Assembly (NCBI GenBank): GCA_018524725.1
Contig: JAEUWP010000120.1
Location: 1-64,000 of the forward strand
Direction: 5' to 3'
DNA length: 64,000 nucleotides
DNA from: Podaxis mareebaensis
Lineage: Eukaryota; Basidiomycota; Agaricomycetes; Agaricales; Agaricaceae
In this document: in pieces, positions 4,361-64,000 of the stretch
How positions within the stretch are numbered: position 1 is the stretch's first letter
Layout of the letters: the number at the start of each line of letters is the position of its first letter
Translations under genes and position numbers: made by a program
Notes under the pieces: model-generated
Databases searched by the model: none
What the model saw: only the letters and a program-made list of their open reading frames with translations
Told to the model about the DNA's origin: nothing

Positions 4361-4376
4361 TTGAGTAACTTGCAGT

Positions 4377-10067: not shown

Positions 10068-10386
10068 GGAACTCCAGGAAGATGATAAGGTAGAATAAAT
10101 AGAAGAAGGAGCAAATGATTGAGGGTTGTTGATTTCAGATGATCGAGAACTTCTGTCAATTTCTGTTGATCAAGAACACTTTTCGATTTTCATTGATCAA
10201 GAATGCTTTTCGATTTCTGTCAATTGAGAACACTTCACCTTGACAAATGTTGATGCAATTTACAGCCAGGGTCTTCTTCTGACAGACCACCAAACATTGA
10301 GTGGGCATATTATAGGCTTCCTTGCCAGACCACCAAACAATGAGTGGGTGAATTACAGTCGAGAAGGGGGTTTTGGTGTTGTTTAG

Positions 10387-10489
10387 GCACAGCACAAAGC
10401 AATGAGAACCAATGACGTCCTGATGGCACAGCACAGAGCAATGAGAACCTTGGGGCAACTATACGCACAGCACGAAGCAATGAGAATGA
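10387..10489. repeat. 39-bp tandem repeat in the element A leader
   Basis: Three copies begin at 10387, 10426 and 10465 with the core GCACAGCACRAAGCAATGAG, spaced exactly 39 bp. A second imperfect repeat (TGATCAAGAA...CTTTTCGATTT) lies at about 10140-10235. A third pair (ACCACCAAACAWTGAGTGGG) lies at about 10282 and 10325. All are in the untranslated leader between PBS and gag. Confidence 0.8.
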
Positions 10490-10531
10490 TAGTCAGGGTG
10501 AAAGTTACAATGTGGGATTGGCACACAAGGG

Positions 10532-29341: not shown

Positions 29342-30292
29342 TCACTCACAACGTCCCCATCCCATTACTTCCCAGGCTTCGCGAGCTGCGAGTTCCTTAG
29401 CTTCTTTCTGATTCTTGCCTACGCCCTGACCTTTGATTTCGCCGTTGACTGAGGTAATAAATGAAACGAAGGCAGTCGCAATGCAGAGGTAACACAGCTT
29501 ACGACAGCACTGGACCGTCCAGGTTGGGGTATGAGAGGAGCCTTCGGATCGAGCGGGGTAGGTCACCGTGTAATGTTTCTGTTGAGCAGCTAGATTGAAT
29601 TGAGCCAAAATCTGGAACTTGTTCCTATCGGGTGTCGACCCCTGGGGCGTAGTCGACGCGTTGCTTTGGGAATAAGGAGGGGGAAAGGGGTTCGTGGGTG
29701 GGGGAGGGGACTGAGGTTGGACACCTCCCGGTTGGTACGAGTGACCAATTCCTGTCGGTAGGTTAGGAGCTGGTGCTTGAGGATCTAGGACCTTTGAGAC
29801 CCATTGCTGGATGGCCTCCGAACCACTCTGTAGGAACGAGGCGCCAATATATTTGTGGAAGAAGTACCTTGCTTCCTGCAAAGGATGAGGATTTCTGCTT
29901 GTTAATTTAAGAATACGTACTGGGTCCGTATCGAGATTAGGCAATACTTCTGGAGAACATCTGATCTTGCGTTTGAGATCGTATGAATTCAGCAAATATA
30001 CGAAGTCAGGCGAGGGGAGTGAGTTCTATACCCATGGAAGTTTAGCCGGCTGAACGATACATTATAGTGAGCTGCTGCTGTGTACCTGGATATCGTCGAC
30101 GGCCATGGGAGGATCTTTCATGAAATAATGATAAGCAAGCGCTTGATCCAGGACACGACCGCCAAGGAATGCCAAACGCGCAGGACTCTTGAAATCATCA
30201 TGTGCGGCAGGTGACATGATAGAGTCGTGCGTGTAGACAGCGAGCGTCAATTCCTGATCAGTTATCGGCGGAAGGGGAGGTAGTTCAGCCAT
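29342..30292 (-). CDS. RNase III-like + dsRBD protein, copy 1
   Basis: Exons 30292-30086, 30025-29921, 29875-29503 and 29448-29342 give 263 aa. The N-terminal part carries LTLAVYTHDS and ARLAFLGGRVLDQAL, corresponding to the RNase III motifs L..ALTH.S and ERLEFLGDAVL. The acidic catalytic residues of the second motif are Ala and Gly, so catalysis is unlikely. A Pro/Ser/Gln-rich linker (PPPPTNPFPPPYSQ) follows. The C-terminus is a double-stranded-RNA-binding fold: ILAQFNLAAQQKHYTVTYPA...TWTVQCC, then NGEIKGQGVGKNQKEAKELA AREAW across the last intron. It probably binds dsRNA in nucleus or cytoplasm without cleaving it; a mitochondrial mL44-like role is an alternative. It is one of three tandem paralogues with identical intron positions. 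Confidence 0.8.
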
Positions 30293-33041: not shown

Positions 33042-33989
33042 TCACTCACAACGTCCCCATCCCATTGCCACCCAAGCTTCACGAGCTGCGAGTTCCTTCG
33101 CCTCTTTCTGGCTCTTACCTACGCCCTGGCCTCTGATTTCGCCGTTGACTGGGGTAATAAATGAAATGAAGGCAATTGCGATGTAAAAGTAACACGGCTT
33201 ACGACAGCATTGAACAGTCCAGGTTGGGGCATGAGGGGGACCTTCGGATCGAGCGGGGTAGGTCACCGTGTAATGTTTCTGTTGAGCAACTAGATTGAAT
33301 TGAGCCAAGATCTGAAGCTTGTTCTTCTCGGGCGTCGACCCCTGAGAGGCGGTCGACGCGTTGCTTTGGGAATAAGGAGGGGGAAAGGAGTTCGTGGGTG
33401 GAGGAGGGGCATGAGATTGGGAACCCCACATGTAGTACGAATGACCATTTCCTGTCGGTAGGTTGGGAGCGGGTGCTCTAGGGTCTAAAACCTTTGAAAC
33501 CCATTGCTGGACGGCCCCGGGACCACTTCCTAGGAACAGGGCGCCCCCGTATTTGTGGAAGAAATACCTTGCTTCCTGCGAAGAATGAGGATTCCTGCCT
33601 GTTGATTTAAGAATACGTACCTGCTCAGTATCGAGACTAGCGATTGCTTCTGGAGAACATATGATCCTCTGTTTAGCACCGGATGTATTCAGCAGATGAA
33701 GGAAGTCAAGCGAAGTGAGCTGGTTCTAAGCGCGTGGGTATTTAGCCGGCTGGATAATGCATTATAGTGAACTGCTACTGTGTACCTGAAGATCACCGAC
33801 GGCCATGGGAGGCTCCTTCATGAAGTGATGATAAGCAAGGGCTTGATCCAGGACATGACGGCCGAGGAATGCCAAACGCGCAGGACTCTTGGGGTCATCG
33901 TCGGCCATAGCCGATAAAGAGTCGTGCGTGTAGACAGTCAGCATCAAGTCCTGGTCGGTTATTGGTGGAAGGGTGGATACATCAGCCAT
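33042..33989 (-). CDS. RNase III-like + dsRBD protein, copy 2
   Basis: Exons 33989-33786, 33725-33621, 33575-33203 and 33148-33042 give 262 aa; all splice sites match copy 1. The N-terminus is MADVSTLPPITDQDL with TVYTHDS and ARLAFLGRHVLDQAL; the positions of the RNase III acidic residues are Ala and Arg. The dsRBD (NGEIRGQGVGKSQKEAKELA) is intact. The middle domain and linker differ most from copy 1. It looks functional, and shares its likely dsRNA-binding, non-cleaving role with the other two copies. The product could be redundant or diverging after duplication; the conserved reading frame with many silent-looking changes suggests selection, which is not proven here. Confidence 0.8.
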
Positions 33990-34308
33990 GTCGCACGATA
34001 ACAGAGGAGTGATGCTAAAGGATGAAGCAGGAGGATACTGCAGTTTGTCAGGCTTTATGTGCTGATTCGAAGCAGGTGGAGACTCCAGAGAAGGATCGAA
34101 TATTCTGAAGAGGGTCGATGAACTTTGATAAGGTCTTGCTGCGATCACAGAGCTTTGGGTGGTAAGAGACTTTGCTGGTATGATACTACACTGTGAGTAG
34201 AGGCGGGTCAGAGAGGAACAAGGATGGGAACTGATCGAGTGGAGGCACAGTAAAAATGCCGAAACGGGAATCGCCGAGTTTTGTGATCCTAACTTATCAC
34301 TTCGAAAT

Positions 34309-34349
34309 GGATGGCGATCGTGCAGAAACTGTCGGGCGAGCTCAGAGAA
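34309..34349 (+). pseudogene. 41-bp DUF6535 scar at the unit 2/unit 3 junction
   Basis: ATGGATGGCGATCGTGCAG and the bases after it match 27699-27739 of the DUF6535 gene, in the same orientation. The sequence then jumps straight to the spacer (compare about 28965). This is all that remains of the DUF6535 gene in unit 3. Confidence 0.85.
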
Positions 34350-34699
34350 AATGATTACCTGAAAAGACGACATTTGGATGCGACTCGAAGGTTGTCTTCG
34401 GTTTGGTTGGCAACATTCCTTTACCGGAGTCCATCATTTATTCTTATGCCTGAACGTGTATTTCAAGCTATTTGTCAATGCTACTAGTAGATTCGAAACA
34501 TAAGATTCAGACTTATTCATCAATGTCAACTACCACCAGAAATCGCTTGCCTTCCTGGTCCGCTTCGCAACACTATGGTTCACGACAGAGATTCAGGAAG
34601 CGAAGCGAGCTACTGGCAGGGTGGCATTATTCAAGGCGAGAACCAAAGCCAGACTACTCGGGCACTTAATGACCGCATGAGTGACTGGCTGGCTTGAGA

Positions 34700-45920: not shown

Positions 45921-47457
45921 ATGTATCACCAGGCACCTCCACCTGGTTATGCACCAAGCTCCGGATCTCTTCCCGGAAACAAAGAACATGGGGAACAAAC
46001 CAACGGTACGTTCCTATAACCTGGACCAAGAGCCGAAGTCTCATACCTTAGATCCTCCAGAGACAAATGGACCTCCTCCTGTCCATTTCTTCTATGGAGC
46101 AAATAACTTCGCAATTAACGGTTCAACTATGATCGGGCTCAACCAAAATTTCTATTCAGGGAGACCAGGTTCGCGTCCTCATACTCAGATGTAACCAATC
46201 AACTTAAAAGATGTACCAGTGCTTTCTATCCTCGACGAGAAAAGGGCCGCTGGAGCAGAGGTAGACTCCTCCGCTCGCGATCCCCCCCCTCAATGCCACC
46301 CAGAGACTCGCAAAGACCTCAGGGAGAGAATCACGTCTTGGCTTATAGATGCGGTGGGGCGAGATTGGAATATGCTGTGGCTCATGGGCCCCGCCGGTGT
46401 GGGCAAATCGGCAGTTGCACAGACCATTGCGGAGGACTGTCAAGAGATCGGGCGTCTCGGCGCTTCATTCTTCTTCTCGAAGCTCAACGACCTTACCGAC
46501 CCCAGCACTGTCATTCCAACACTGGCTTATCGCCTTGCTGCCAATCACGCCGAGTACAGGAATGCGATCACGCAGATTATTGCTGACGATCGCTCGATTC
46601 TGGACAAGACGTTGCGTGTTCAGTTCAAAAAGCTCATCACAGAGCCGTTCCGTTCGCTCATGATCCAGAACCCGCTCATTGCTCAGGAGCCACTTCTAAT
46701 TGTATTAGATGGCCTGGACGAGTGTGACGGTGAAAAAGCGCAATGCGAGTTCATCGATCTTATTGGCGAATATGTTCGTTTGACGAACCCATCACCTCTG
46801 CTGTGGATGATCTGTAGTCGCCCAGAATGGCACCTCAAGCGCATATCATCCAGGGCCGATTTTTATGTGAATTGCAGGCACGAAGAGCTGACGGTTGATG
46901 CCGCTACCGACAAGAAGGATGTCTACTGCGCTCTCAAGGACGGCTTCAATAAGATCCGTGACGAGTTTTTTTGGGACCTTCACGGGGCTGAGGCAGAAAA
47001 ATCATGGCCGACGGAGGTGCAATTGCAACGCCTAGCAGATGCGTCAGGTGGACTATTCGTCGTCATCTCAACTCTCCTGGGGTTTGTTGGTGACCCGGTG
47101 GTCGGGGATCCAGACAGGCAGTTGGGGATTTGTCTATCGTTCCTGGGGGATGCTCGCACCCCAAATGCAGCCAATCCGCTGCACGGGCTAGATCTCCTGT
47201 ATCGTCGAATCATGTCGGCCGTTCCTGCAGATGACTTACCATTCACAAAACTTATTCTTGCGTCCTGCCTTTTTTTCCCCCAACCTCGAAACACTCTCCC
47301 AAGTGCCCAATTTCTTGCGAATCTCCTTGGCCTAGATCAGCCCACCTTTTATTGGGTCCTTCGCAAACTACATTCCGTGGTCAAGGTTCCCCCTTCCGAG
47401 TTGGCACATAAGAAACCTTTGGCACTCGTCCATGCATCATACGGTGACTTCCTTTGA
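45921..47457 (+). CDS. NACHT NTPase of the fungal NLR type, prematurely ended
   Basis: Exons 45921-46005, 46061-46168 and 46211-47457 give 479 aa. A Pro-rich start (MYHQAPPPGYAPSSGS) is followed by a Gly/Asn motif, FFYGANNFAINGS, common at the head of Agaricomycete NLRs. The NACHT domain has Walker A GPAGVGKSAVAQ, Walker B LLIVLDGLDEC and a sensor-like LLWMICSRPEWHL. Fungal NLRs sense non-self or cell damage and trigger cell death or heterokaryon incompatibility. The frame ends at a TGA right after ALVHASYGDFL, a point where relatives continue (see 47458-48010). No WD40, ankyrin or TPR repeats follow. Element B begins about 1 kb downstream. Confidence 0.85.
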
Positions 47458-48010
47458 GACTCGAAATGATTGGGAAAGTTTGCTCTCGATGAGGCACAAG
47501 CAAAATGTGACATTGCTGCTTGTTGTGTCCGGTTCTATAATCGCTATATCCAACGAAATTGCCTGTTGTCAAGTAGGTCTCATTCTTTCTTCCTCCGAGG
47601 GACACATGAATCATTTTTGGGCAGGTTGCTGGCTCGCCCCAGCACCGTTCCCCGAGTGGCAGTGGGCTCAAGAATGCACAGGGGTGGACACTGACCCATT
47701 CAAAGTCGCACAATACTGTTGGAACACTTGCTGTCAAGTTGTAGGTGAAGCAGAAAGAGTGGTTGTCATGGCAGAGCTTTGTACATTCAATTTCTGTCAC
47801 CTTGATTCCATAAGGCTGTCAGACGAGTTTACGAAATTTGTGCAGTGGGTAGGTCGGGGGTCGGTAAGTTGTTGGCTGTATACGGATCTCCTAGCACTGA
47901 TTCTACTTATAGTGTCACCTCCAGAGCCCTGCCCTACTTCGGGCTACACCACCAGCTTCCGAAGTAGAATCCAGTATCCTCAATGCATGCTGCAGTTTGG
48001 AATGTGACTC
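47458..48010 (+). pseudogene. Remnant 3' part of the NLR gene
   Basis: After the TGA at 47455-47457 the same frame continues with a second TGA at 47467-47469, then LGKFALDEAQAKCDIAACC and FYNRYIQ, the usual NLR continuation. A probable intron follows (acceptor near 47625), then FKVAQYCWNTCCQV and LCTFNFCHL...FVQWV. Both stops could come from CGA. Either the gene is dead at its 3' end or the shorter 479-residue form is used. Confidence 0.6.
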
Positions 48011-48478
48011 CTTTCAGTGGTGTGCTCAGCCACCCTTTATGGCTGAATATAAATTCAGCTCTTTGCATTGCCCTAAGCATGATCCTCTATACTATGTAGG
48101 GTGGACACTTGCAACACGAGTCGCGACAAAACCAGCAGGTACGTTTTGGCTTGGGCATGGTGAAAGAGTTGTGGTGGTTGTGGTATGGGATGGGTACCCA
48201 AAAGAGACACTCCCCTCCATATTAGGGTCAGCTGCAGAGTGGATGAGGCATGGTACAGTCATGAACAATTGAACTCGACGACTGTATCTCAAGATTGGCT
48301 TGTTGAATATCCAAGACTCTCTGGCAGATGATTTCCTGACTCTGCGAAGCAAGAGGAGGGTTTCTGTTGGAATCCAAATGCACATTGAGACATGAGCTCA
48401 GGGGATGACAAGATGATGTAGCTAATGGACAATGGTGCTTAGTAGTCTGATATGCAACAATTCAGTAGATACATGTTA
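48011..48478. other. Spacer between NLR remnant and element B
   Basis: No supported gene; short open frames on both strands without domains. Confidence 0.4.
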
Positions 48479-49245
48479 TGTTACAAGGTTTCTTCTTTGG
48501 TTAAATGATGCCTAAGTCAAGACCTATCCTTGCAAGAGATGAGCAGAGGTCTTTGTCCTGTACAGGTCTGAAGGAGCTACTCTGTTTAACCTCAGGTGAC
48601 TATTCATGTTGTCTCTAGGCAGTGAACTCATATAGATTGCACACTCTGTAGGATCAATGCTAGAGAGAAGCCATGAGGGAAAAGCTTTCACAAGGGTGAA
48701 GAGTTGAACACTTAACAATGTCTGTCAGATAGACAAGTAACACACATTACTGGGGTAACACTCATTAAGATTAGACTTGCTAATCTACATGTCCAGGCAG
48801 TATACATATACTAGTCCAAGTGACTACTTAAGGAAGTAGATCAAATGTAACATAGAAGATGAAAACTAAGAGGAAGGCATAGAAGTGGAGCATAGGGCAT
48901 AGGGCATAAAGGTGCATACAAAAGTCTACAAGAGCAAACATAATTGATGTGACACAAGTATGATAGAAGAGACAAAACTTATACCTAGTCCAATAATAGA
49001 ATGTGTTTAAATATAGAAGAAGATATAAATTTAGCATTCATCACAAATCATTGTCACAAGGGAAGTAAACTCCATGATACTGGCATGCTTCATCTATCTT
49101 CTCACACATTTCCCAATCCAGTGTTTGCCTGAGTTCTATCATCTCCTGCCACAAGCTGATCATCATGTGCTTCATCAAATCCCATTCTTCAAGTGATTGT
49201 TCCTCAGTCTCTTCAGTCTCCTCAGAGTTGTCAATATTTGTAACA
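48479..49245 (-). repeat. 3' LTR of element B
   Basis: 767 bp beginning TGTTACA and ending TGTAACA. It is clearly homologous to the LTRs of A, including AAGATTAGACTT at 48767-48778 and the TATA-like stretch just beyond. Confidence 0.9.
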
Positions 49246-49690
49246 TGATCTCCTTCATAATGTTGAGCATCCTCACTTGACTCAGCAACTCCCAGTAACA
49301 TTTTCATCATCATAAGGATATTCATATATTCCTTCTCCTGTGTCATCCATGATGCTTTGGAGGGTGCATTCAATGGACTGAGCTGATCATTGTCAAGGGT
49401 GAATACATTGGTCTATAGCTCTGGGGATAGTGGTGTTGTTAATAGCATAACAGGAGAAGCATAGAGGAGATCTATCATGGTGTTTGTCAGGGAATTGAGG
49501 TCTTCTGATGTTGTTAGTAGTGGTGAGTCCTGTCTGAAGGAGAGTGTGGCCTCAGTGGCAATGCAAATGAATGGGTGAAGGAGAGCTTGAGTCTCCTGAC
49601 AATTGAAGTCTAGCTGAAGAGGAGGAGGTAGTTGATATGGAGAAATCTGGGGAATAAGAAACCTGGGATCAATTGTCTGTGGCAATACTA
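49041..49690 (-). pseudogene. Element B ORF4-type tail running into the LTR
   Basis: Two pieces (49685-49413 and 49373-49041) match the C-terminal 272 codons in element A: LPQTIDPRFLIPQISPYQLPP, LLTTSEDLNSLTNTM, then ASWMTQEKEYMNI and the tail ending YHGVYFPCDNDL. As in A, the frame ends at the same point inside the LTR. One interruption separates the pieces. Conservation in both copies shows it is a family feature. Function unknown. Confidence 0.6.
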
Positions 49691-50273
49691 GTTTCTCATG
49701 TTAGGATGGTCCTTATTGCTGGTCACCTAAGCTTTGCTAGGGGGTGGCTGTCTCACTAGATGGTTCACAGAGGTGCTAGGATCTAGCAAGAAGGATTACA
49801 ATAAGAAGGTGGCAAGGCAAGTGTCTAGTTAAGCACACTTCAGAGGTTGAACATCTATTAGTTGAGGATATGACCAATAGAACATTTACTACCACACTGA
49901 TTGTGAAACTAATGTCAATTGTAAGAGTGAGAGAACACAGGTACAATTTAAGAATATAGGAAGCTTGCACTTCCAGTACATGAGCAGCTATTTAAGCTCT
50001 ACTTCTAATGTCCTAAAGTGGTAGCTATGTCAAAGTAATGCTGTGTGTCTGAGAGTCAATAGAAGCATAACTATGGAATGGAGAGAATAGAGACTAAGAC
50101 AAGAATAGAAACTAGCTATTTAAGGAAATAGTTCAAGTCTGAGTTCAGGCAGGATACAAGGATATGAGGCAAATAGTCTGTAACAGCAAAGATAAGAAAG
50201 AACTATTTACTGAGGATATTACAAGTCCATATCAGAATGAAGGTGTCCATTGGCTGAGTTAGAGGAGTAAGAG

Positions 50274-52052
50274 TCAGGAGATGAGACAGCTGGGAATGGC
50301 AAAGTTCCCTAAAAGGGGTGAGTCAGAAGAGTCTGACTTGTGCATTGGACTGCAGCACAGTGAGGAAGATGATGATGATGACAAGGATATGTCTGCAGTG
50401 ACATAGGGAGGTGGATATGGTGGAGGATCTGCAGCAGGTTCTTCAGGGTTTGACTCATTGATGCCAGGGATGTTGGAGGCAATGCTATGTAAGGGTGGAA
50501 GCTGTGTATGATGGGGAGGAATGGCCAGAGGGTCATTAGAGTTAGGGTCAATGCAATAGACTTCTACTTCTTGAAAGTAGAGTCCATGAGCAACTTCATA
50601 CTTGATGATATGTGGGATGACCTTGGGCAGATACATCATGTAGGGATAGAGGAAGATGATTGGCTCTCCTGTGTAGGGGATCATCTTCTAACCATGGGCC
50701 CAGGTGGAGTCAAAGTTATTGTGGATAGTTTGAATGTATAACCTGTCAGGATTGAAGACATGGGTGAAGGGAGCATTTTCCCCAGTGATGCATAATATCT
50801 CTGTCATCATGCAGTCAGTAGAATAGAATAGTGGTCCAGGTGTCAGCCAGTCTTTAGAAAATAATAATGCATGGCCAGGAAGGTGATGATTGGCAAAAGC
50901 TTCATTGTGGTACTGGACTGGGTCTTCAGTTGGCATACTGGTATCTTGAGTAGTATGGTGGGAGGTGTTGGAGGGTCCAAGCTTGTGGACTAAGGTGTGA
51001 TAAATAACATTGCAGTGGGGCATGCTAGGCATGTTCATAACACATTGTCTGATATCAAACTGCCAGGCAGGTTGCTTGGTGAGTCTGTCAGTGGTGAGGT
51101 GGGCTCTCTCAGCAAGAATTCTTGTGTAATAATATCTGGGATGTATTTGGATGGGGTTGAGGAAGCAATACTTCTGGTAGTATCCCAGGGCATAGTAGTA
51201 ACAGAAGGGGCAATAATATCCTGGGCATTGATCCACCTGATGACCCACATTGCTACATTGATAGCAGGTGGCACATTGATCAGATAGAGTGAGAATAGGG
51301 CTATCATAGCAAGGAGGTTCTGGATCTCCAGAAGTTCCTGTTTTGGTGTGTTGTTGATCCACATCATGAAGTTGCTTGGGTATTGTAAGGGTTTCTTGGT
51401 TCTGTCACAGTAAAGGGTTCTGAGTAACATTGCCAGATCTAAGTCCAATTTGTGGGTGGAGAAAAGCAGATATGTCCTCTTACACTTGCAAAACCATGTG
51501 GTGGGCACCTGAGAGGTATCACCTTTCTTGATCAAGTCCTGGCAAGTCAATAACCTGATTAAAGCAGGTACTGACTTCATCAGCCAGTCTGTTAGCATGG
51601 AGCTGGCAATGTATTGCATTAAACCAAGTTGTCCTGAAAGTGTTGAGTACTTCAGTTGACTGATGACTGTGCTCAAGAGTGGACCTTGCTCAGGAAAAGG
51701 AGTCTTTGTATAGAGATTGGAGTTGTACAGCAGCAGAAAGAGCAGCATTGCTTGCTTCTTGTATGGAACTAGTCAGAAAGGTTTGCCTTTGGGTGCTTTG
51801 TGTTTCATATAATTCAAACACCTCAGATATTTGGTGCCTGACTTTGGCAATGTCAGTGACTTGTCTTTGCTGTTCTTTATAGCATAGTGACTCAGGGGTA
51901 GAAGGACAGTCTTCTGGTGATGGAGTAGGTTTCTGAGTGAGAGGAGTTGGAGGCACAGAGACAAGAGTCTGCAATGATGCTTGAGTAAAGGAAGTAATAG
52001 AAGTTGGAGTGGTTGGGTAGTTGGTAGTAGTGGTGTTAGAAGTGGTAGACAT
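50274..52052 (-). pseudogene. Element B ORF3 with CCHC knuckle
   Basis: The ATG at 52052 (MSTTSNTTTTNYPTTPTS) lies just past the pol end. The same frame, broken by point stops, continues through a helical Gln-rich region to a knuckle CYQCSNVGHQVDQC followed by CPFC, then an open stretch to 50688 and a final piece (50684-50274) ending in Ser-rich LSSSSSSSLCCSP. This is about 590 codons, the fullest version of ORF3 in the window. Helix-rich N-terminus plus CCHC knuckle gives a Gag-like layout. About 1.36 kb of it and its 3' flank (about 49702-51065) is missing from element A. Confidence 0.6.
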
Positions 52053-52084
52053 TCAAATAGTTTGAGTCTTCAGTTGAGTTTGTA

Positions 52085-55000
52085 CTGTCATTTATAAGTG
52101 TCAAGGAGGGTCTTGGAAATGTGCAGGTCTGTCAAATTTTGCCAGGTTTGTTCCAAATCAGGGTATCCCTTCCAATGGACTAGGAACTCTAATCCTCATC
52201 TTCTTATGTGATGGTGGGCCACTATGGCTTCAACTTCCCATTCTTCTTCTCCTTGAATGAGGTCAGGTGGAGGTCTTGAGAAGTGTTTGCCATAAATGTC
52301 ATTTTCAGTGACAGGATAGAGATATTGGGTGTAGAAGATGTTGTGGATCTTCCAGCTCTTTGGGAGAGATAGCTCATAGAACATACTTCCTAATAATGGT
52401 GAATGGGCCTAGTTGACAGGCAGCAATCTTCCTTGGCATGACCTGAATAGGTAGATTTCAAGCATCAAGCCAGACTTTCTGGCCAGGTTCTATTTTTGGT
52501 AGCATGCATATTTGTGTTCATTCTATTATAATTTTGTACAAAGTTTCATGAGCTATTTTTGCAGCTTCTCAGATATTAATGATCCAATTCATTCTTTCTT
52601 TAGCTGATAAGAGTTTGTCAGAGCTAGCTCAGTAGGGAAGGCTTTGAGTGAGTGGCTATACATAAGTTCAAATGGAGTTTGTTGTCAGTTAGCATGCATT
52701 CTGGAGTTATGGGAGAATTTGACTAGTAGGAGGTGTTCAGACCAAGAGTGGGGATTTTGAGTGCAATAGGCCAATAGGTACATCTCAATTCCTTGATTAA
52801 ACCTTTCAGTTGATCTGTCTAACTGGGGGTGATAGGTGGTAGAGGGGGCATGATTGATGTTCAGTTTCTTGAACATAGCTTGTATTGATTTAGCCATGAA
52901 TCAGGGATCTCTGTCTGAAATGATTTTATTGGGTATTCCTGTATGAATGAACACATGTTTGATTAGGATGTCTGCAATTTGATCAGCAGTAGCAGATTTG
53001 GAAGTGGGTACTATGATTATCCCCTTTGTGAGACCATGCTCCACTACAAACAATATTGTATTATATCCATTGGATTTGGGGAGGTCAGTGATGATGTCCA
53101 TGGACATTTGAGTAAAGGGACATAGGGATTGGGGTCCAGAAATCAGCTGCAGAGGGGACTTCAGAGGTCATTGAATAATCTTATACTGTTAGCAGATTGG
53201 GCAGTCTTTCATGTAGTTCATGACATAGGCTCATATGCCAGGCCAGGTGATGTATTCTTGAAGTCTTCTGAGCATTTCAGTGACTCTGGGGTGTCTTGCA
53301 GCTGGTACATTGTGTACATGCTGCAATAGGTGCTTCTTAAGTGTGGAGTCCATAGGGAGTTGAATGTGACCTTCTTGATCCAGTTCTATGGTTCCATCCT
53401 TTCCTTTTTAAGCTTTATTTTCAATATCAGAGTCTATGATGTTGATTTTGTCATTTTCTCCTGTCTTAACTGACTTTGCATTAGCATTGGTAAAGTCACT
53501 AGTTTGAAACTTGTCTAGTGGGATAGCCACTCTAGTAGTTTTGAGTTCCATGTCTTTACTAGTTGAGGTATGGTCTGGTCTTCTAGACAAAGCATTAGCA
53601 GTGCAGTTTTTTGAACCAAGGATATGGCAAATCTTGATTTTATGGGCACTGATCATTACAGACCATCAAATGGTTCATCTTGAGAGCTTTGATGGCTTGG
53701 CCCAATGAATAATGTTGTTGTGATCTGTCTATATCATGGTTTTGTAAGGTGATCTGTCAATGTAATGACACCATTCCTGTAAAGCTTGGATGATGGCAAG
53801 GAATTCTTGCTCTGATGCATGATAATTCTATTCAGCTTTTGAGAATGGTTTGGAGTAGTAAAAGCAGGGGTGTAGTACTCCATTAGAGTCCTTTTGAAGG
53901 AGGACTGCCTCTGAAGCATAGGCAGATGCATCAGTTTGAATTTCAAATGGTTTGGAGGGGTCTGGAGTGATTAAGACTGGTTTCTCCAAAAAGTGTTGTT
54001 TTAATTTGTTAAACGACTCATCTGCTTCTTTTGTCCAGTGAAAGGGGGTATTTGACTTTTTGAATAAGGTGTTAAGGGGTAATGACAGGTGGGTGTAGTG
54101 CTTGATGAACTTGTGATAGAAATTACAGAACCCAATGAATTTCCATATGTCTTGAACTGTCTTGGGAGTTGGCCAATCCACTATTCCTTTGAGTTTTGTG
54201 GGGTCCATCTTGACTTTGCTCAGAGAAATGATGAATCTGAGGTATGAAAGAGTCATTTTCTGGAATTTGCATTTCTCAGGTTTGAGGTAGAGATCATGCT
54301 TTTGCAAGATCTTGAGTACTTCTTTGGTTATTTTCTTGAGTTTAGTTTTGGTTGGTGCATGGATGAGGATGTTGTCCATATAGACAATGACTTTGTTTTG
54401 CATGATGAGGAGAGCAAGGATAGTGTCCATCATGTTTTGAAATGTTGCAGGGCTGTTGCACATTCTGAAAAATATGACTGTTAGTTCAAATAATCCTTGG
54501 TGGGTATAGAATGCTTCTTTCCATCTATCCTCTTCCATGATTCAGATGTTATTGTAGCTGAGTCAAACATTGAGAACAGTGAAGTATTTTGATCCTTGTA
54601 ATTTGTCAAGTATGGATTGGATGGAGGGAATTGGGTAACCATTTTTGACCATGTGTTCATTGAGGTACCAGTAATCTTGACAAGGCCTGAGTTTTCCATT
54701 TTTCTTTGAAACAAAGAAAAATGGGGAGGCCATAGGGGATTTTGAGGGTCTGATGTATCCTTTCACAAGGTTCTCCTTGAGGAATTTGTTGAGCTCCTTT
54801 TCTTTGGCTAGGGAGAGCTCATAGGAGGGGAAAGCTTTTGGAATAAAGGTCTCTTTGGTTTCAATTCTATGGTCCCATTATCAAGTAGGAGGAAATCTTT
54901 TGCTTTTCTTCTAAGAGAAAAGGTTGAGGTAATCATGGAGCTCCTTTGGGACAATCTTTTTTGGGCTGGTTTCCTTCTTTTGTTCTCCCATTTGGGTGAG

Positions 55001-55412
55001 TATTTGTGAATAGGAGGTCTTTGCATTGATTTCAGTGAAATCTTCCTCAGAGAAATCTTCTTCAAGTTTGTTGATGTAAAGTTTGGAAAGAGTGGTGTCA
55101 ATTATTGAGGAAAGTATGGTGTTCTCCATCAAACATCTCCATGAGAGAGTTTGTTTCAACCAGTTGATATCAGGGTTGTATTTCATGAGCCAGGGGATTC
55201 CTAAAATTATTCTGGGTTGTCCCAGATTAATTACTTGCAAATCAGCTTTCATTTGCTTCCCATAGATGGTAAAGCTTAGGGTGACAAAATGAGTGATTTG
55301 CTTATCTTTATTCAAGGACCCATCTGTGTTCCTGACTTTGATTGGTTTCTTTAATGGTGACATTTTCAGGTTCCAGGTTTCAACTAACCAGTGGTCAATA
55401 AAATCTCATCCT
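52085..55412 (-). pseudogene. Element B pol (partial, degenerate)
   Basis: Protease-flanking and RT start at 55363-54911 (MSPLKKPIKVRNTDG...LQVINLGQPRIILGIPW). RT fingers are at 54766-54563 ([20 protein letters not shown]). The RT palm through RNase H is one open frame, 54538-53828 (MCNSPATFQNMMDTIL, then YMDN for YxDD, and QTDASAYAS). The integrase HHCC part is at 53656-53170, and the core is at 53107-52685 with both Asp and an intact Glu (STERFNQGIEMYL). The chromodomain region is at about 52400-52130. Many stops; inactive. The protease motif is cut by element C. Confidence 0.85.
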
Positions 55413-55417
55413 GCTCC

Positions 55418-55682
55418 TGTAAGCCTACTGAGGCTTACTTAGAGCTTAGACCTTAAGTTCATACCAATGTACAATAAACCCAATGTATTGGGATGTATGT
55501 AGTGTAGGTATAAGGTCAGCTGTCATGACAACAGCTGACAACAAGAATATAAGGAATATTTTCCTGATGGATGAAGTAATCCATTAGGGTTAAGTAGACA
55601 GTGGGAATTAAACAAATAATAAATACAAGATTGATTGACAAGAAAAGGAGATGGCCATGATAGTAAGGGCTTAACCCTTACA
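55418..55682 (-). repeat. 3' LTR of element C
   Basis: 265 bp, TGTAAGCC...CCTTACA on the plus strand. On the minus strand it is preceded by a purine-rich AATGGGGAGTG. Hairpins sit at both ends (GTAAGCCT/AGGCTTAC at 55419-55438; GTAAGGG/CCCTTAC at 55663-55681) and inside (GTCAGCTGT/ACAGCTGAC at 55515-55539). Confidence 0.75.
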
Positions 55683-55852
55683 CACTCCCCATTGAGACCA
55701 TAGGGTACAGTCAAGAATTTCAGGACACAAGTAACAAGGTTACTTGTGGTGACAAGTGGGAGACAGGGACACATATAGCACCCAGTCAGCAGTAAAATTT
55801 AGATGAGGTGATGGATTACCTCATAGGGGATGTAGGGCTGGAGTCAACTTGA

Positions 55853-58420
55853 TCATGAAGGTGACAAGGATGAGCATGAGTGTGAAGAGGCGATCAATGA
55901 GGATTTGCTGATGGGGTCTTGAGATGAGGAGGCAGAGGCATTGGCCTCAGCCAGGATGGTGATGGGTGGGAGATCAGATGCAAGGGCAGGGGTGTTGGCC
56001 TCAGTCATGGTTGTGTCAGATGAGTGAGATTCAGTGGCAGTGAGTGTGGATACAAAGGCATTGGCCTCTATCATTTGGGCATCCATATTGAGAGCTGCTC
56101 CATCAGGAATGGCAGGTGCCATCTTGTCAAGAGTTAGCATGAGAGGATGGGTCAACTGCAATTGGGATGGGGGTGGTTCCAGCAGATGCTGAGGGTAGTC
56201 ACAGTTCTGTAGGAGCCAGAAGTAAGGCAAGGCCCCTGCTGGTAACCATCCTCAGGAAACAAAGTGTTCCCCCTTTTCTTGTCAAGTATTCTTGTACTCA
56301 AAGTACAAGAATCGATTGAGGTTGTCATCAGTGGGATGTCTCTATCCATCCCACTCTGGAATTGCCAGTGGTTCATGATACTGGTTGAAGTATTCCACTT
56401 GGCAATTGTCATGTTCATCATATAAATCATGGTGTAGTTGGTCACCATGATAGGTGTGGTTGAGCCACCACAACCTGAAGAGATATGCATGGTCTACCCA
56501 TGAAGTGGGTATACCATTATGAATGAGGACATGAGCCACATCATTGAGGCTCAAGTTGTGTGCAGCATAGGAGGTTATGTCCAGGGACTGTATCAAAAAT
56601 ACAGGCCCATTTTGTGAGGAGTAGGCATGTTCTTGGGGAATGTAACTGTTATATCTGGCAATGAGTTCCCAGTATAAGTTCAGGGTCATGAGGAGGATAG
56701 CAAATAACCTCATGAACTTCTGTGATGTGCTCTTGTTGGATGGGCTCAGTGCTCAGCCCAAGCCATAACCAAAGATGCAACAGTGGTGGACAAGTTGTCA
56801 CTGTTCAAATGCAATGCCATTGTAGGCATTGTGAGTGTTGGGGTTTCTGTGGATGAGGAGATATTGACCTAGGAGGTCAATATTGAAAAGCTGAGGGCCA
56901 GTCAGCATCAGGAGGCCTTTGCCCTCATTTCATTTGAGAATGTTTCTGGTGCCATGATCTTGCATGGCATGTGGAATGGGCTCAAGCCTAGTCATGTATT
57001 CCCTCTGCATTCCAGGCACCAGGAAGTTAGGGTCATATCCCTTGAGGTTCAAGATAAACTCCATAGCATCATTGTGATGCTCTGGCAGAGTTGCAGTTAT
57101 GATGCTGTGCAGTTCTTGGAGTAGGAAGTATGCCTTGAACCTGCTGTGGATGTTGATATGGTGGTTATTCATAAACTGCTATAGTCATATGACTTGTCTC
57201 AGGGTTGTTGGTAGACCCTGACCTGCAATGTGGTGAACTGTACCTTTCTTGTTGCTGTGCATGAACTCCCTGCCTTGGAGTTCAGTGTTGGCAGCAAGTC
57301 AGGCATTTGTGCCTGCAAATACTGTGTTTATTTGCTGGCAATAATATACATTATGTGACAACATTCCTTGCATGGAGTTGTCACATTCTCTGATACCCAG
57401 CTCAGTACCCCAAAGTCCCCAGAGGTCAGGAATCCTGCCTCCTCATCTGATGAGGTCAGAGATGCCAGTGCAATTGTCGTCTCCAGATGATTGTGCTTTT
57501 TGGTTTTTCTTGTTTTTCTTATGATGATTCCTTGATGAATTGTGGTCTTCATCACTTGAGTATTCCAGTCCTGAAAGCTGTTCCTCCAGGTTGTCTGGGC
57601 TGTACTGGATGAACTTGTGGTGGATGTGGATTATGGGTTCTGGTAGAAGATTTCCTGGCAGGCACACCAGGATAGGTTGGCCAAAGGAGAGTCCTTCAAA
57701 CAAGGACTCTGATGGTATGATACTGCTCAAGGTCAGTTTTGTTGACCTTGAGACTGTGCTTGTTGAGGGTTCATGCATGGGGACATTGATGTCCCCAGAT
57801 GGTACTTCCTCAATGTAGGGTAATGTGATGTCAGCTGGGGGTGGTAGTGGCTGATGTAATGACAATGTAGCAGGTAGTGGTGAGGGTTGGTAGCATTGGC
57901 AAGGTAAAGGTTTTACCTCACTACCCATGTGTGGTGTTGAGGTGGTGGAGTCTTGTGGGGTGCTTGGCACCCCCCATTGAGAAGATGATGTCAATTGGGA
58001 TGTTGCATGTCATTTTGCTGGCCATTCCTCCTCCTGGTCCAGTTTCTCACTTAGTTGTCATTGCAGGTTGGAAACCTGCCTTTGCAATAGGCTGTTTCAT
58101 CCTTCAAGCATGATGAAATGGTCCTGTAGACTGTGGAGCTTCATTAGAAGCTCCTCAATAATGGTGTTGCAATCAGTGTGTTTTGAGCTGGTGCTCAGTT
58201 CAGATATCAGGTCTAAGGGTAGACCTGCTTTGTTAAGTTGGTTCATCAGCTCTTGGACATATTGGTTGTCCTCAAGCTCTACATCTATGGCCCTTTGCTT
58301 TCCTTGAGCTTTTGAGGAGAGCATGGGTGTTGTTAGTTCTGGTGGATTTTGTTTACCCTTGTCCTTAGAGGACAAGGGTAGTGTGGGGTTTGGCACCTTA
58401 CTCCTTCCTCTGGTTGACAC
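55853..58420 (-). pseudogene. Element C extra ORF between chromodomain and 3' LTR
   Basis: Five open pieces (58420-58097, 57994-57443, 57172-56930, 56713-56342, 56230-55853) all lie in one frame, so this was a single ORF of about 855 codons. Stops at piece ends are TGA at 58097, 57443, 56930 and 55853 and TAG at 56342. Landmarks: a charged N-terminus with KGKQNPPEL, a heptad-like NQYVQELMNQLNKAGLPLDL, a Pro-rich middle, LHSIITATLPEHHNDAMEFIL, LSLNDVAHVLIHNGIPTSWVDH and a Ser-rich tail. I recall similar sequences in other Agaricomycete Gypsy elements but know no function. No zinc knuckle is seen. Confidence 0.7.
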
Positions 58421-59162
58421 TACTGAGGAGGATCTGGATGAAGGAGTAGTGTTACTCCTTCATGGTTCAGGTGCCAGTGGTGGGTTGGGTGCCATTGTGG
58501 TTGGTTTCTGTGTGGAGATGGGCTGATCTTGGGTCAGCTGTTGGGGCTGTTGAGGAGTGGTTGCCATTTGCAGGTTTGGTGCAAGCAGCTGCTGGGTGAA
58601 TGGCACAGGTTATTGGTGTTGAAACAGTGGGTATGGCATCAGAGGAGGAGGGTATGGTCCATACAGTTGTGGAAAACTGTACATGTGTGGTAGTGGGGGG
58701 TAGTACAGAGGATATGGGTATCCTTGCATGAATTGTTGAGGTAGTGGGGGCATCACATGTAAATGCAATGGGTCCATTTGGTTGATGCCTTGGGGTATCA
58801 TACCTACAAGGCTGGTTAGTAGTGCTTAATGGGCAGCTAGCTACTGCCCATCATGTGTTTGTGTCAGGTCAGGCAATATATCCATTGGCCTCCCCCCCTT
58901 CAAGGCCCAATATAGGGCCTCCAGTCTGTGCAGGGTGATTGGTATCACCCAGCACCAGTTGTTGTTGTTGTTGTTGAGTGTGCTGGTTGTATTGGCTATG
59001 CTGGGAGTCCATGGGTGTGGTTGAGGTGAAAGGATGAATTAAAGTTATTTGTCCAATCTTTGTGTTCCCAAACATTGGGAATGCAATCCTCAGGGTCAAG
59101 TGTCCAATTTTGGACACCATCAATTTTTCCACAGATAGTCATTGACTGATCCATGGTAGCTG

Positions 59163-62100
59163 TCAGATTGACTTAACACCTTTCAGCTCTAGATACCAAT
59201 CTAGAGCTGCTAGGTCCTTACAATGGCTATATGGCTCCCAGGTCATATTGCCTAAACTCCAGCAGACTTGGAACTCTGCCTTGCCATCATTTGTAAAACA
59301 ATGACTGATGATTCTGTTGATGAACCATTCATGTTTGTTGTCTACATCAAAGTCATACAGTTCTGGTTTATTTTGGCTAGGGAATAGTACATTGTCTGAT
59401 GCATTATAGGGCTGCAATAGGGAGATGTGGAACATTGGGTGTATTCAACATTCCTGTAGGGCTGGTGGTAGCTTGAGACAGTAGTTAGACATCTCAGGCT
59501 TAGCTTCTAGGACCTTGAATGGTCCTATAAATTTTGGACAGAGTTTGTGAGCTCTGCCTTTTGGCAGGTTCAAGTTCTTCATGGAAAGGAATACCAGGTC
59601 TCTGACTTTAATGTCAGGCTCAGGCCCTCTCCTCTTGTTTGCCTGGTGGGTTTGAAAAACTCATGCTTCTATGATAGCATCATGCACAGGTGGCTTCAGC
59701 AAATAGTCTAACACCCTTAGGGGGTGTTAGGTTGCCCCATATCTCTCAGATCATACTGGGCATGTATCCACTGTTCAATTCAAATGGTGTGTATCCTGTA
59801 GTGGCAGATATACTCAAGTTTATAGCAAACTCAGTCATGGGTACCTTGTCTACCCAGTTTTTTTGGTCATGGCTGACCATTGCCTGGAATATCTGTCTGA
59901 TATTCTGGTTCATGCATTTGGTCTGCCTGTCCATTTGTGGGTGGAATGATGTGGACATTAGGAGCTTAGCTCCTAAAATTTTATGGAGTTCTACCCACCA
60001 AACAGAGGTGAACTTTGAATCTCAATTGCTAATGATCAAGCTAGGGAGGCCATGCAGCCTCATGATTTCTCATAGGTATATCCAGGATAACTCAGATGCT
60101 TTCATCTGCATATGCACTGGAATAAGGTGTACCATGCTAGTCATTCTACAAATGACAACCCAAAGGTAATTGAAACCCTTGGATTCAGGGAATGGACCAA
60201 CAAAGTCCATTCCAATGGAGTCCCAAGGTTTGGTTGGGACCAGTAGTGAGTGTAGTTCTCTGGAAGGTTTCATATTCAAGACCTTTGAATGTTGGCATAT
60301 CTCACAGGTTCTACAGAACATGCATGCATCTTTGGCTAATTTTGGCTACCAGTACCACCTTCAGAGGTACTCTGCTGTCTGTTGGTTGCTGAAGTGACCA
60401 ATAATCTCATGAGCTTTATTCAAAAGCTCTGTAATTAAGGATCAATTGTTGGGAACGCATACTACCTCCTGTCCTTGTGGGGTAGTTCTTTGAATAATAC
60501 CATCATCATTGATGGTAAAACCACTGTATTTCTCAGGTACTTCAAGCACCACTGAAAATATGGGGTTGGATGCATATCCTGATGTGATTGTTTTTGTCAC
60601 ATTGATTGGGAGCTCCATTGGAGCTTTGGTGGTGATGTTACCTGTTAACATGTCTCCCAGTGTTGGAGACTTGATGAGTTGTTCTTGTGGCTCCTGTTGA
60701 GCAACCTGTCTCTGGGCTGCTTCTTGAAGCTCACGAGCTTCGATCTCTCATTCTTCCTGCCATTTGTGCAGGCAGGTGCTTCAGTGCAATGGTCACTTGA
60801 CCATTGCCTTGACTCTGTTGAGGAGATGCTCAATCTCCTCAGCTTGTTGTAGAGGTAGGTCCTTGCAGTGAGGATCAATTCTGTGATCAACTTGGATATA
60901 TTCTCCAGGGGAGTGTTCCTCTCCTGGAGTATCACTTTCAAAGTAGTGAGACAGGCAGTCTGCTACTTTATTTCATTCTCCTTTGACATATGTAATGTCA
61001 AAGTTAAAGTATGATAGATAGTCCATCCATCATCATTGTTAGCTAGACAAATGCATTTGAGTTTTGAAAAACTCCAGCACCTTGTGATCCATGATAACAT
61101 GGATCCAGTAGCCAACAAGCTTGTCCTCCCACTTCATTAGTGCTTCTAAAATCACTAGTGTCTCAAGTTTGTGCATGGCATAGTTCTGCTGTGCTGGGGT
61201 GAACTTCTTGGACATGAATCCTACTGGGCAGCAGTCTGCCCAGGTGGGTCCTTGTCCATACATAGCCCTGACACCTGTCTTAGAGGTGTTGTAGATGATC
61301 CATATGGGTTCCCCAGTCCTGGGGTCTATTGGTTTGACAATGGGAGTCTTCTCACAGATCCTCTTCACTATATCAAAACATCATTGGTGAAGGGGCCTCC
61401 AATGGAATGGGGTCCCATTCTGAGTGATTGTGAGCAGTGGCCCAGTGTATGCAGATACATCTGGCAAGAAATTTGCCAGGTAGTTGACAAGTCCAACAAA
61501 TCATTGGATGTCAGTATAGTTTCTTGGAGTGCACCACCCCCAAATATGAGTCAGTTTGTCTTCATCTGGGTGTATCCCTTGGTCATTGATAATATGACCA
61601 AGGCAGTCAATGTGATCTGTGTACAGATCACATTTGGATTGTTTGATATATAGCTTGTGTTTGCACAGTTGCTTGAACACAAGCCATAGATGATCTTTGT
61701 GCTCATCTATCAAGTCAGAGAATATGAAGATGTCATCAAGGTATATGTGTATACATATACCTATGACATCACAAAATATAGTGGTCATCAACCACTGAAA
61801 GGTTGCAGGGGCATTACAATCCCCCTGCTACATTATGTTGCTGACATATGTGCCAGCAATTGTAGCAAATCCCATTTTGTCTACATCTTCCAGATGTACT
61901 CAGACTTGCTTGTAGGTGTCAGTGAGATTGATCTTGGATCGATATCATGCTCAAGCAATGTCTTCTCAAATGACATCTTGGTCTGGCAAGAGTGTAGCAT
62001 CCTTGATGGTGTTTTTGTTTCATTGTTGTGCATTGATGACAGTTTGTAGTTGACTGTCTTTGGGATGTATAGTAATGGCACTACTTGGGAGATATGTCAT

Positions 62101-63728
62101 GGCTCCCACCATTTTGCATTCACATAGCAGTTGAGTTTCTGGTGAAACTCCCCACACAGGGATTGTGGGCATCTGGGAGTGAAGTAGCTATACTTCTTAC
62201 TCTCATCAATGAGGTTTATTTCATGATTTACTTCATAAAATGGGGGAAGCTTGTCTGGAGGACCATGCATTATGTCCTTGAATTCATTGAACCACTGCTG
62301 GTGCAGCATTGGTATGTCCTTCTTGGAGTACTAGCCTTGTCACTCAGGGTGGTGATTCCTCTTCTCAGCATTAATCTGAGTGTTTTGTATCCATGTTTCT
62401 GAATCATCTTCCACTGGAAGATGAGTGATGAGCATACTGCAGAGTTGATCTCATACCATTTTATCAGGGTAATGTACCCTGGTAAACTCCTGGGTTTTGA
62501 CTATGTCATCAAGGTTGGGTTGTATGAACCCAGTCAATGTTGGTAGTTCGTCCCCAGGACAATGCATTTCCCATATGCCACAGACCATGGCATTCCATTC
62601 TGTGGGCATTCAGGGGTCATAATACCACTTGAACATTGGGTTCTGAGTGGGTCTGTCTATCAAATGAGACTTGTATCTCATTTTTTGTGGTCCATGAGGG
62701 GCATTTTGTCCCTCTTGATTTGGTGAAGGGAGTGCTTTCTCCTTTGGTTTGTTTTTCTTGGATGAGACCTTGTGTTCTTCTTGACCCACATCCCCCCTTC
62801 AAGAGTTCATGGAACTCTCGACCTTTTCTAGGAGGTGATGGCTATCATGGGGTAATGTTTCCCCTCAGGAGCTTTGTTCATCATCTTGAACTGCTTCTAT
62901 GGATGTTTGATGGACATCATCCCATTGAACATCCTCCACAAGTCAACTTGACTTGTTTTTGTCAGTTGCATGGTGGCAGTGCAGGTGAGTATCTGATTCA
63001 CCAGCAAAGTTCACTACTTCTATGGTTTCACTTCCAATTCTGACTTCATTCTTGATGAAGTCGAGGATGACATTGTTCATACACATGAATGGCATACCGA
63101 TTATCATGTTATAGCAATCAAAGTTTGCTATATCTACATACATACAGGTACATATGTTTCCAATGGCAACATTTACTGTTGCTCCATACTTGACAGTGGA
63201 TTGACTGCCCACTGTCCCCAGTTGCAGTGTGTGAGGGTCTAATAGTTCATTGACCCTGATGCCAGCCACTTGTGCAAACATGGGGGTGATGCCAGTAGTC
63301 ATACTACCAGAGTCCCACAGTGTCCAAGTGTCAATACCATTGACACTGACAAGAGTGGCAAGACATTGTTTCTCACTGAGGGAGGCTTGGGGCCAAAGGA
63401 TCTTATCCTTCTCTTTATGGAGGGTAACACAGCATACCCTCACTTTGTGGTCTGGTTTCTTGCTGGGCTCAACAGTGAGAGCATCAACAACATTGAAGTT
63501 GTCACAATCTTTGTCATTGATGTCTTCTGCATTGCCAATCATGGCAGCAAAATCATATTTGTCATCAATGTCAGATCTGTAGTCTGATTTGATGACTTTG
63601 ACTTGTACTAGTTCATCTCCATTTGATGAACTAGACTCTGGTTCTTCTTGGACCTCAGTGTTGTCATCTGAGGTTGAGTCCTGTTCAATTTCTTCAACTT
63701 CTTGTTGAAGAACTTCTTTGTCATTCAC
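59163..63728 (-). pseudogene. Element C pol: protease, RT, RNase H, integrase, chromodomain (degenerate)
   Basis: Protease at 63728-62943 (TLWDSGSMTTG with intact DSG; NMIIGMPFM). RT pieces at 62309-61881 and, in a different frame, 61791-61501 with an intact YLDDIFIFSD. RNase H at 61368-61039 (NTSKTGVRAMYGQG, ETLVILEALMKWEDKLVGY). Integrase has HEIIGH at about 60410, C..C and DFVGPFPESKG at 60321-60070, and a core C-terminal half at 59958-59746, where the Glu motif reads QTKCMNQ (Glu replaced by Lys). The chromodomain piece is 59435-59163 (FINRIISHCFTNDGKAEFQVCW...MTWEPYSHCKDL). At least two frameshifts and many stops, so inactive. Confidence 0.85.
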
Positions 63729-63734
63729 TGGGAC

Positions 63735-64000
63735 AACTGTGTGTGTGGCTCATATATAACTGCATCATTTCCCCTTCTCTGGGCATTCTTGTGCCCAGTG
63801 ACCATGTTTTCCACATTCATAACAAGGCCCTTTTTCTGTGGCCTTGTTCCCTTGGATCAGCTTCACAGGTGCTCTGTTTTGTACCTGAGGTTTGAATTGG
63901 GCCTTGGGTTTATGTTGTTGAGGTGGAGGTCTCAACAGCTGCTTTGGTGGAAAGGTGTTTGAGGGTTGCCTTAGCTTGTGAGCAGGAATGCAATCCCATC
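63735..64000 (-). pseudogene. 3' end of element C gag with CCHC knuckle
   Basis: CYECGKHGHWAQECP (C-X2-C-X4-H-X4-C) is encoded at about 63824-63780, in frame with the protease ORF. Two TGA codons separate them (KGK-stop, YI-stop). The remainder of gag lies beyond the window. Confidence 0.7.

Follow-up and report, generated by a model that had tools for sequence, protein, structure and literature searches.

Short perfect hairpins maintained by selection in a Ty3/Gypsy retrotransposon lineage of Podaxis mareebaensis

Introduction

The 64,000-nucleotide stretch of DNA analyzed here (the window; positions 1 to 64,000 of contig JAEUWP010000120.1, assembly GCA_018524725.1) comes from the agaric fungus Podaxis mareebaensis and ends within a decayed long terminal repeat (LTR) retrotransposon, element C, that is saturated with short perfect hairpins. 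The best-supported reading of this element and its relatives is that selection keeps a Ty3/Gypsy lineage folded into such hairpins, some of which arise by template switching. A preliminary description of the window had set two causes side by side without choosing, namely template-switch errors of the element's reverse transcriptase (RT) and selection for a folded RNA; selection on the stems is supported by the contrast between stems and loops, by the behavior of non-coding DNA and of third codon positions, by a neutral simulation and by the comparison of shared with private changes.

Results

Excess of perfect inverted repeats in element C

Within the window (positions 55418-63940), element C contains 113, 73, 41, 25 and 12 perfect inverted repeats with arms of at least 6, 7, 8, 9 and 10 bp, respectively, compared with means of 26.7, 7.0, 1.8, 0.55 and 0.05 (maxima 36, 11, 5, 2 and 1) in twenty dinucleotide-preserving shuffles, all with loops of 2-12 nt. 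The hairpin observation is real and stronger than first claimed: the abundance of perfect inverted repeats is borne out by counts beyond the shuffled range, the “about ten” reported with arms of at least 10 bp agree with the 12 counted, and the “at least 22” with arms of at least 8 bp, although correct in pointing to an excess, was an undercount. Mirror repeats show nothing comparable (13 vs 5.3 shuffled at arms of at least 7 bp; 1 vs 1.25 at arms of at least 8 bp). Loops of 2 to about 15 nt show a strong excess, which peaks at about 4-9 nt; at 16-35 nt it is small, and above that it is absent. The hairpins reach the far end of the element beyond the window (94 with arms of at least 7 bp in the 11657 bases counted).

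At arms of at least 7 bp, the region of a second retroelement, element B (47500-55417), holds 9 hairpins vs 5.7 in shuffles, and that of a third, element A (1-10500), shows a weak excess (17 vs 7.0, and 8 vs 2.45 at arms of at least 8 bp), so that the earlier statement that A and B have nothing comparable holds for B and nearly holds for A. The window's genes (10500-47500) have no hairpin excess (15 vs 23.4, five shuffles). Elements A and B are 81.5% identical across 4.4 kb and therefore represent one family.

The intact 1476-base open reading frame (ORF) of another copy of element C, L020, contains 14 hairpins with arms of at least 7 bp, a number above the range of synonymous-codon shuffles, which retain 1.5 (maximum 4, 40 shuffles), and codon-order shuffles retain 0.6; seven more stretches of L020, L017 and L041 gave the same outcome under codon shuffling. 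The hairpins reside mainly in synonymous codon choice, and the amino acid sequence gives a small share, which narrows the earlier suggestion that the protein has evolved around them.

Several simpler causes are ruled out: chance, composition and codon usage by the dinucleotide and codon shuffles; low CpG content by the similar hairpin density of L020 (CpG ratio 0.94) and L034 (0.01); a general host property by the sampled loci described below and the window's genes; and mobile hairpin inserts by the gap-free alignment of 36 of the 37 L020-L041 hairpins, the sole exception lying at an alignment end. Rfam yielded 0 matches at the gathering score in window positions 55000-64000.

Distribution of the hairpins among related elements

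The genome surveyed comprises 37 Mb in 429 contigs, in which a 2-kb integrase-RT piece of element C has 26 further matches over most of its length (84-90% identity). Across group C, that is, 27 loci including the window copy, hairpins with arms of at least 7 bp occur at 6.6-10.8 per kb, and the CpG ratios of these loci span 0.01 to 0.94; at three loci bearing fragments the density is 4.5-5.7 per kb. A sister group, D, which shares about 65% DNA identity with C and 60-67% identity across 492 residues, has 6.3-8.9 hairpins per kb at its eight loci. The other retroelements, represented by a sample rather than a census of 37 loci (28 around integrase places, the three nearest Gypsy relatives and six loci in prokaryotic metagenome-assembled genomes), have 0-3.3 hairpins per kb, the six prokaryotic loci being 28-39% identical with 0.15-1.5 per kb. 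The possibility, raised at the outset, that unrelated elements share the density of about 6-11 per kb seen in C and D did not hold for this sample. A tree of the RT-integrase region places C and D together, far from the other elements; its columns were derived from blast, and low coverage excluded element A, L048 and 14 loci that are Copia-like or poorly covered. No relatives of the lineage were found in IMG/VR. The hairpins are a family-wide property, not chance.

Between C and D, 14-47% of the hairpins with arms of at least 8 bp are matched by one centred on the same position in the other group (3% on average and at most 27% in the shifted control), and the density is maintained although hairpin positions mostly differ.

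Several features of the copies and of other elements deserve mention. The C copies (e.g., L034, L009, L023, L020) form a CpG-decay series with ratios from 0.01 to 0.94, and the stops inside their frames are mostly TGA, as expected from CGA methylation and deamination. Folding or short hairpins are in less marked excess in the Copia-type or unassigned elements L002, L004-L008, L049 and L050 (at arms of at least 6 bp, 19 vs 7.5 in L004 and 16 vs 4.0 in L049), where stem conservation is weak at most.

Conservation of stems between copies

The 3' part of the element occurs as two subfamilies about 25% apart, represented by L078 and L077. At stems that are perfect in L078, 8.1% of 516 sites differ in L077, compared with 28% in loops, 27% in 8-base flanks and 27% in the rest; with CpG sites removed, stems differ at 5.6% and the other classes at 24-27%, and the reverse comparison, from L077 stems to L078, gives 10.8% stem divergence. 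The contrast extends to the non-coding spacer and LTR (8 of 118 stem sites vs 91 of 288 others; in reverse, 2 of 84 vs 99 of 324) and to third codon positions (17 of 137 vs 389 of 834). In pol, stem divergence falls below that of shifted masks at p < 0.05 in 7 of 8 comparisons within C and in 4 of 5 between C and D, the exception among the latter being L041 vs L020 (0.08). L010 and L029 were omitted from the 5-kb alignment and the fragments L036-L038 from all alignments.

Because hairpins were picked for being perfect in one copy, their stems are expected to diverge less, and this ascertainment bias was checked by the reciprocal comparison, by private changes, by simulation and in other families. 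When neutral evolution is simulated along two branches at the site rates observed, stem divergence comes to 0.21 and 0.20, and 31 hairpins dwindle to about 6 and 33 to about 7; both real sequences retain theirs. Five pairs from other families (10 comparisons) show no stem drop reaching 0.05, and in a Copia family stems are slightly lower in each of seven comparisons (lowest p 0.03).

The C copies on C286, C280, C287, C345 and C347 are 86-89% identical to the window copy in pol and about 75% in the LTR/extra-ORF part; 3' modules therefore seem to have been exchanged between subfamilies.

Dead copies as a neutral yardstick

Most changes found in a single copy arose after its insertion, and most of those shared by three or more copies date from the active phase of the element. 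In 21 C copies, with CpG columns excluded and the divergent or mosaic copies L026, L033, L034 and L035 left out, 55 shared changes and 104 private ones fall in stems, compared with 286 and 217 elsewhere (p 1.2e-6); a variant count gives 54/91 vs 267/194 (p 1.6e-5), and counts polarised by group D give 57/47 vs 244/98 (p 0.003). At third codon positions, shared changes affect 29 of 275 stem sites vs 146 of 741 other sites, and private ones 30 vs 97. Private changes affect stems about as often as other sites, and the stems are therefore not mutational cold spots; for the same reason, the selected function is unlikely to lie in the integrated DNA. Group C stems are held by purifying selection during the active phase, in coding and non-coding parts alike. 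As a separate observation, private changes at A-T stem pairs of the 21 copies lead to A-C in 23 cases and to G-T in 7 (sense strand), a strand-asymmetric mutation pattern.

Template switching as a source of hairpins

Template-switch mutation that creates and repairs RNA hairpins is documented for RNA genes in the accessible text of PMC8794818. Copy L067 of group D has a stretch of 15 nt that, read from the alignment rows, is the reverse complement of the neighbouring stretch in its relatives, a change that extends a 5-6-bp stem to at least 10 bp and inverts the loop. Among C copies, one inverted loop occurs in L026 and a second is common to L015 and L034. Among 12339 change clusters in C, a strict scan detected 4 haplotypes that are reverse complements, against 1 in the reversed control. 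They lie at three places, one of which is an ordinary stem difference. The scan detected none among 890 clusters in D or 850 in the Copia control, and the L067 footprint is visible only in looser scans. Pairs of reverse-complement loop haplotypes in C number 27, vs 5 reversed, several of them at CpG-decay sites. Template switching, seen at three places, is one source of stems or inverted loops.

These footprints, together with perfect stems that far outnumber one-mismatch stems, are what would be expected if the array were a functionless mutational by-product, with the RT or host replication switching template in quasi-palindromes faster than point mutation breaks hairpins. We regard this as very unlikely, given that stem sites change 2-4 times less than others, non-coding DNA included, that private changes strike stems at normal frequency, and that the strict scan of D was empty. 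Neutral conversion between arms should leave the substitution rate of a site unchanged, so template switching alone does not explain stem conservation; the first of the two causes originally offered thus stands as a source of stems and fails as a sole neutral cause.

Predicted folding and covariation

Measured in 350-nt windows, each against ten shuffles, the minimum folding energy difference (MFED) of three C stretches is 22.9, 28.5 and 26.6% and that of two D stretches 29.5 and 25.9%, vs 3.6% for element A, 1.3% for element B, -1.4% and 2.7% for the Gypsy loci L060 and L062, and 15.3% for the Copia locus L005. With one arm of each perfect hairpin (arms of at least 6 bp) scrambled, MFED falls to 3.5, 5.8 and 9.2%; the predicted folding excess is thus mostly due to these hairpins. 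The antisense strand reaches 14.6-22.0%, and the folding gains of the sense and antisense strands are 25.5/23.2, 23.4/19.4 and 25.4/20.2 kcal per 350 nt, so that the sense gain is larger by 2-5.

A first count of covariation within C, in which 405 of 430 double changes keep pairing, is largely a CpG-decay artefact. Between C and D, with CpG removed, 31 of 84 double changes pair, modestly above slid controls (17-23 of 74-93), a weak signal. The covariation check proposed in the preliminary description thus came out weakly positive between the groups and, with CpG columns removed, near the control values within C.

Organization of element C and neighbouring genes

Element C lies on the minus strand and extends from contig position 55418 to 67069, past the window end (64000), so that the start first given for it is kept and the first proposed end, 63940, falls short. 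Its 265-bp LTRs are 91.7% identical to each other, have TG..CA ends and are flanked on both sides by the 5-bp target duplication GCTCC. Along L020, in the sense direction, pol runs PF08284, RT region, PF17919/PF17917 and PF17921, that is, protease, RT, RNase H and integrase; the RT piece of L020 itself is without a Pfam match. The LTR ends, target duplication and pol order are those of a Ty3/Gypsy element. The chromodomain match in the L020 equivalent (PF00385, 20.5 bits, E 4.6e-4) is below the cut-off of 25.1, next to a clear SH3_Tf2-1 domain.

The spacer and LTR of L078 (sense 2956-3401) show no codon periodicity and contain 7 hairpins. The extra ORF, decayed in element C, is present in L078 as open pieces of 564 and 420 aa with one stop between them (complement of 1710-3401 and 447-1706), and L078-L077 differences in it are concentrated at third codon positions. 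Neither piece has a Pfam match above cut-off; a protein search with the first piece found one homologue, in Agaricus bisporus (27% identity). Nothing yet links this ORF to the hairpins.

Table 1. Features of element C within the window, with selected perfect hairpins
Feature	Positions	Strand	Remarks
LTR, 265 bp (3' LTR of sense transcript)	55418..55682	-	partner at contig 66805-67069, outside window
Non-coding spacer	55683..55853	-	limits approximate, transferred from copy L078
Extra ORF after pol, decayed	55854..59100	-	limits approximate
Integrase C-terminal part, SH3 (Tf2-1-like) and weak chromodomain	59125..60021	-	L020 equivalent PF24626, E 4.8e-17
RNase H and integrase region	60028..61500	-	protein match C335:60028-61500, 85% to L020, 12 internal stops; PF17917, PF17921 in L020
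RT region	61501..62928	-	limits approximate; C/D homology; PF00078 in many relatives
Protease region	62950..63702	-	approximate; L020 equivalent PF08284, 27.0 bits, cut-off 20.3
Perfect hairpin, arms 12 bp, loop 2	61609..61634	.	
Perfect hairpin, arms 12 bp, loop 3	58354..58380	.	
Perfect hairpin, arms 11 bp, loop 3	56288..56312	.	10-bp core unaltered in both 75%-identical subfamily copies
Perfect hairpin, arms 11 bp, loop 4	58438..58463	.	
Perfect hairpin, arms 11 bp, loop 4	59184..59209	.	found in 22 of 25 aligned C copies
Perfect hairpin, arms 9 bp, loop 2	57778..57797	.	identical arms in both subfamilies
Perfect LTR hairpin, arms 9 bp, loop 7	55515..55539	.	arms kept in both subfamilies, loop differs

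The window's genes include three minus-strand ORFs (29345-30025, 33045-33725 and 33765-34433): two carry PF00035, a motif for binding double-stranded RNA, at 31.2 and 33.5 bits, and their neighbour has an RNase III-like PF14622 match of 17.8 bits, below the cut-off of 35. The cluster of such genes pointed out earlier is therefore present, and, as was also said then, nothing links it to element C (no link was sought). The window further contains a gene for an AA14 lytic polysaccharide monooxygenase (23987-25171, plus strand; PF22810, 482.5 bits), 73% identical to that of Macrolepiota fuliginosa and 64% to that of Agaricus bisporus, as fits an agaric host, probably of the Agaricaceae, and an ORF for a NACHT/NPHP3_N-type ATPase (46195-47457, plus strand).

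Discussion

The reading we favor is that in this Ty3/Gypsy, apparently chromovirus-like lineage, the nucleic acid would form a chain of short, local, perfect Watson-Crick stem-loops, with arms mostly of 7-12 bp, loops of 2-14 nt and roughly one hairpin per ~100 nt, which would cover about a fifth of the sequence. In group C, the stems were maintained by purifying selection while the element was active, and at three places template switching perfected stems or inverted loops. In the step of which we are least sure, folding would compact the genomic RNA and shield it, for example from annealing to complementary RNA and from RNA-directed silencing, until the RNA is packaged and copied. Taken as a whole, including compaction and shielding, this account seems to us somewhat better than an even bet (probability about 0.55). 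By analogy, the functional step may be shielding or compaction of the genomic RNA, as has been suggested for the genome-scale ordered RNA structure (GORS) of RNA viruses, or the docking of a protein of the element.

Several observations weigh against this account. In group D (seven copies, L040 excluded), the contrast between shared and private changes is not significant (31/70 in stems vs 171/322, p 0.49), and one pair within C, L020 vs L035, lacks stem conservation (p 0.19). The larger folding gain of the sense strand may be unspecific, since the controls A and B also have a slight advantage on that strand. Classical selection on RNA should spare G-U over A-C; shared stem changes in C comprise 9 G-U and 18 A-C, and private ones 26 and 46 (sense; when polarised, 8 and 11 shared, 15 and 25 private), and arm ends have no G-U excess over composition. 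There is no preference for stable tetraloops (1 of the 32 listed for four stretches belongs to a specially stable class), and compensatory changes of non-CpG types within C number 5 among 267 pairs, compared with 2-4 in six slid controls. With G-U tolerated no better than A-C and both strands folding, what the data establish is Watson-Crick complementarity; of the proposal that selection acts for a folded RNA, the selection on stems therefore stands, and RNA as the selected molecule does not follow. Such strictness is compatible with an RNA fold that has a sharp threshold, with a need for structure in both strands, with single-stranded cDNA, or with mismatches being repaired quickly by arm copying.

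A broader formulation, which we hold tentatively and find less probable than the favored account, would see the lineage as selected to be a dense, strictly Watson-Crick hairpin array, written with the help of its own RT through template switching: a genome-wide pairing code in genomic RNA, single-stranded cDNA or both, which differs from classical RNA folds in that G-U cannot stand in for a Watson-Crick pair and neither loops nor stem sequences are constrained. Less probable still, and in our estimate quite unlikely, is that the selected molecule is single-stranded DNA, either minus-strand cDNA or both strands, with a role in RT pausing, strand transfer or cDNA protection. Strict pairing and hairpins that serve both strands would suit this idea, as would the mosaic copies (86-89% identity in pol, ~75% in the 3' part), which fit frequent recombination; the somewhat larger predicted folding gain of the sense strand does not. 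We know of no precedent, which also counts against it.

That the hairpins are dispersed docking sites, short perfect duplexes whose recognition by Gag or by the extra-ORF protein drives packaging and particle assembly, is a further possibility that we consider doubtful. The hairpins span the whole element including LTR and spacer, selection is confined to the active phase, and the lineage carries an extra ORF without a known domain, all of which such docking would accommodate. Against it, the loops vary in length (2-14 nt) and evolve like the rest of the sequence, the tetraloops listed differ, no loop recognition motif is shared, the stem sequences are mutually different, and spacing (mean 95-119 nt) shows at most a trend towards regularity, with values of 0.05 or less in 2 of 6 stretches. 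The dispersed packaging signals of single-stranded RNA viruses resemble the present array in placing many stem-loops across a genome (PMC6281560, PMC7612645); as presented in the accessible text, they share a loop motif bound by coat protein, and none is seen in the lineage of element C.

Returning to the favored account of a selected hairpin chain, its closest parallel is GORS. For coronaviruses, the accessible text of PMC7642675 reports several hundred stem-loops with poorly conserved positions, an MFED of 15% for SARS-CoV-2 and of 23.4% at the highest, and singleton changes spread equally over paired and unpaired sites, with recurrent ones favoring unpaired sites. The element likewise has consecutive local stem-loops running through coding sequence, a high MFED (23-30%, although windows and shuffles differ in detail from that study) and poorly conserved hairpin positions, and its paired sites are less variable for shared but not for private changes. 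Raised folding energy is present in the C and D stretches tested, and constraint on paired sites is present in C and not significant in D. Unlike the GORS described there, the stems are short and perfect, G-U is not favored and non-coding parts are included, and the MFED range lies above the coronavirus values. The element is a fungal LTR retrotransposon and not a positive-strand RNA virus; it may thus be said to work like GORS without being filed as a member.

Other systems are similar in part. The template-switch hairpins of PMC8794818 share the copying of a reverse complement that perfects stems and inverts loops; there, as far as that text extends, single RNA genes and replication errors are concerned, whereas here a whole element is affected, footprints are few and selection acts on top. 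Yeast Ty3/Ty1 offers another folded genomic RNA of an LTR retrotransposon (PMC11381356), with a well-folded core and specific sites in Ty3, and the accessible text does not mention a dense array of short perfect hairpins. Maize transposable elements also contain local hairpins (PMC10760457), described there as pre-microRNA-like folds correlated with small RNAs, in contrast to the 7-12-bp stems conserved by selection here. Among titles and abstract openings, in a search outside which most subscription journals lie, no retrotransposon with such a hairpin array was found.

Genome-wide folding in RNA viruses has been discussed as a link to persistence and to escape from RNA-sensing defences. The occurrence of a stronger and simpler form in one retrotransposon family, with other families of the same genome lacking it, makes testable the question of what selects for folding, be it shielding from RNA silencing or packaging, and whether template-switching polymerases supply it. 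The lineage offers dozens of copies of different age for this purpose, the dead ones forming a built-in neutral control that viruses lack.

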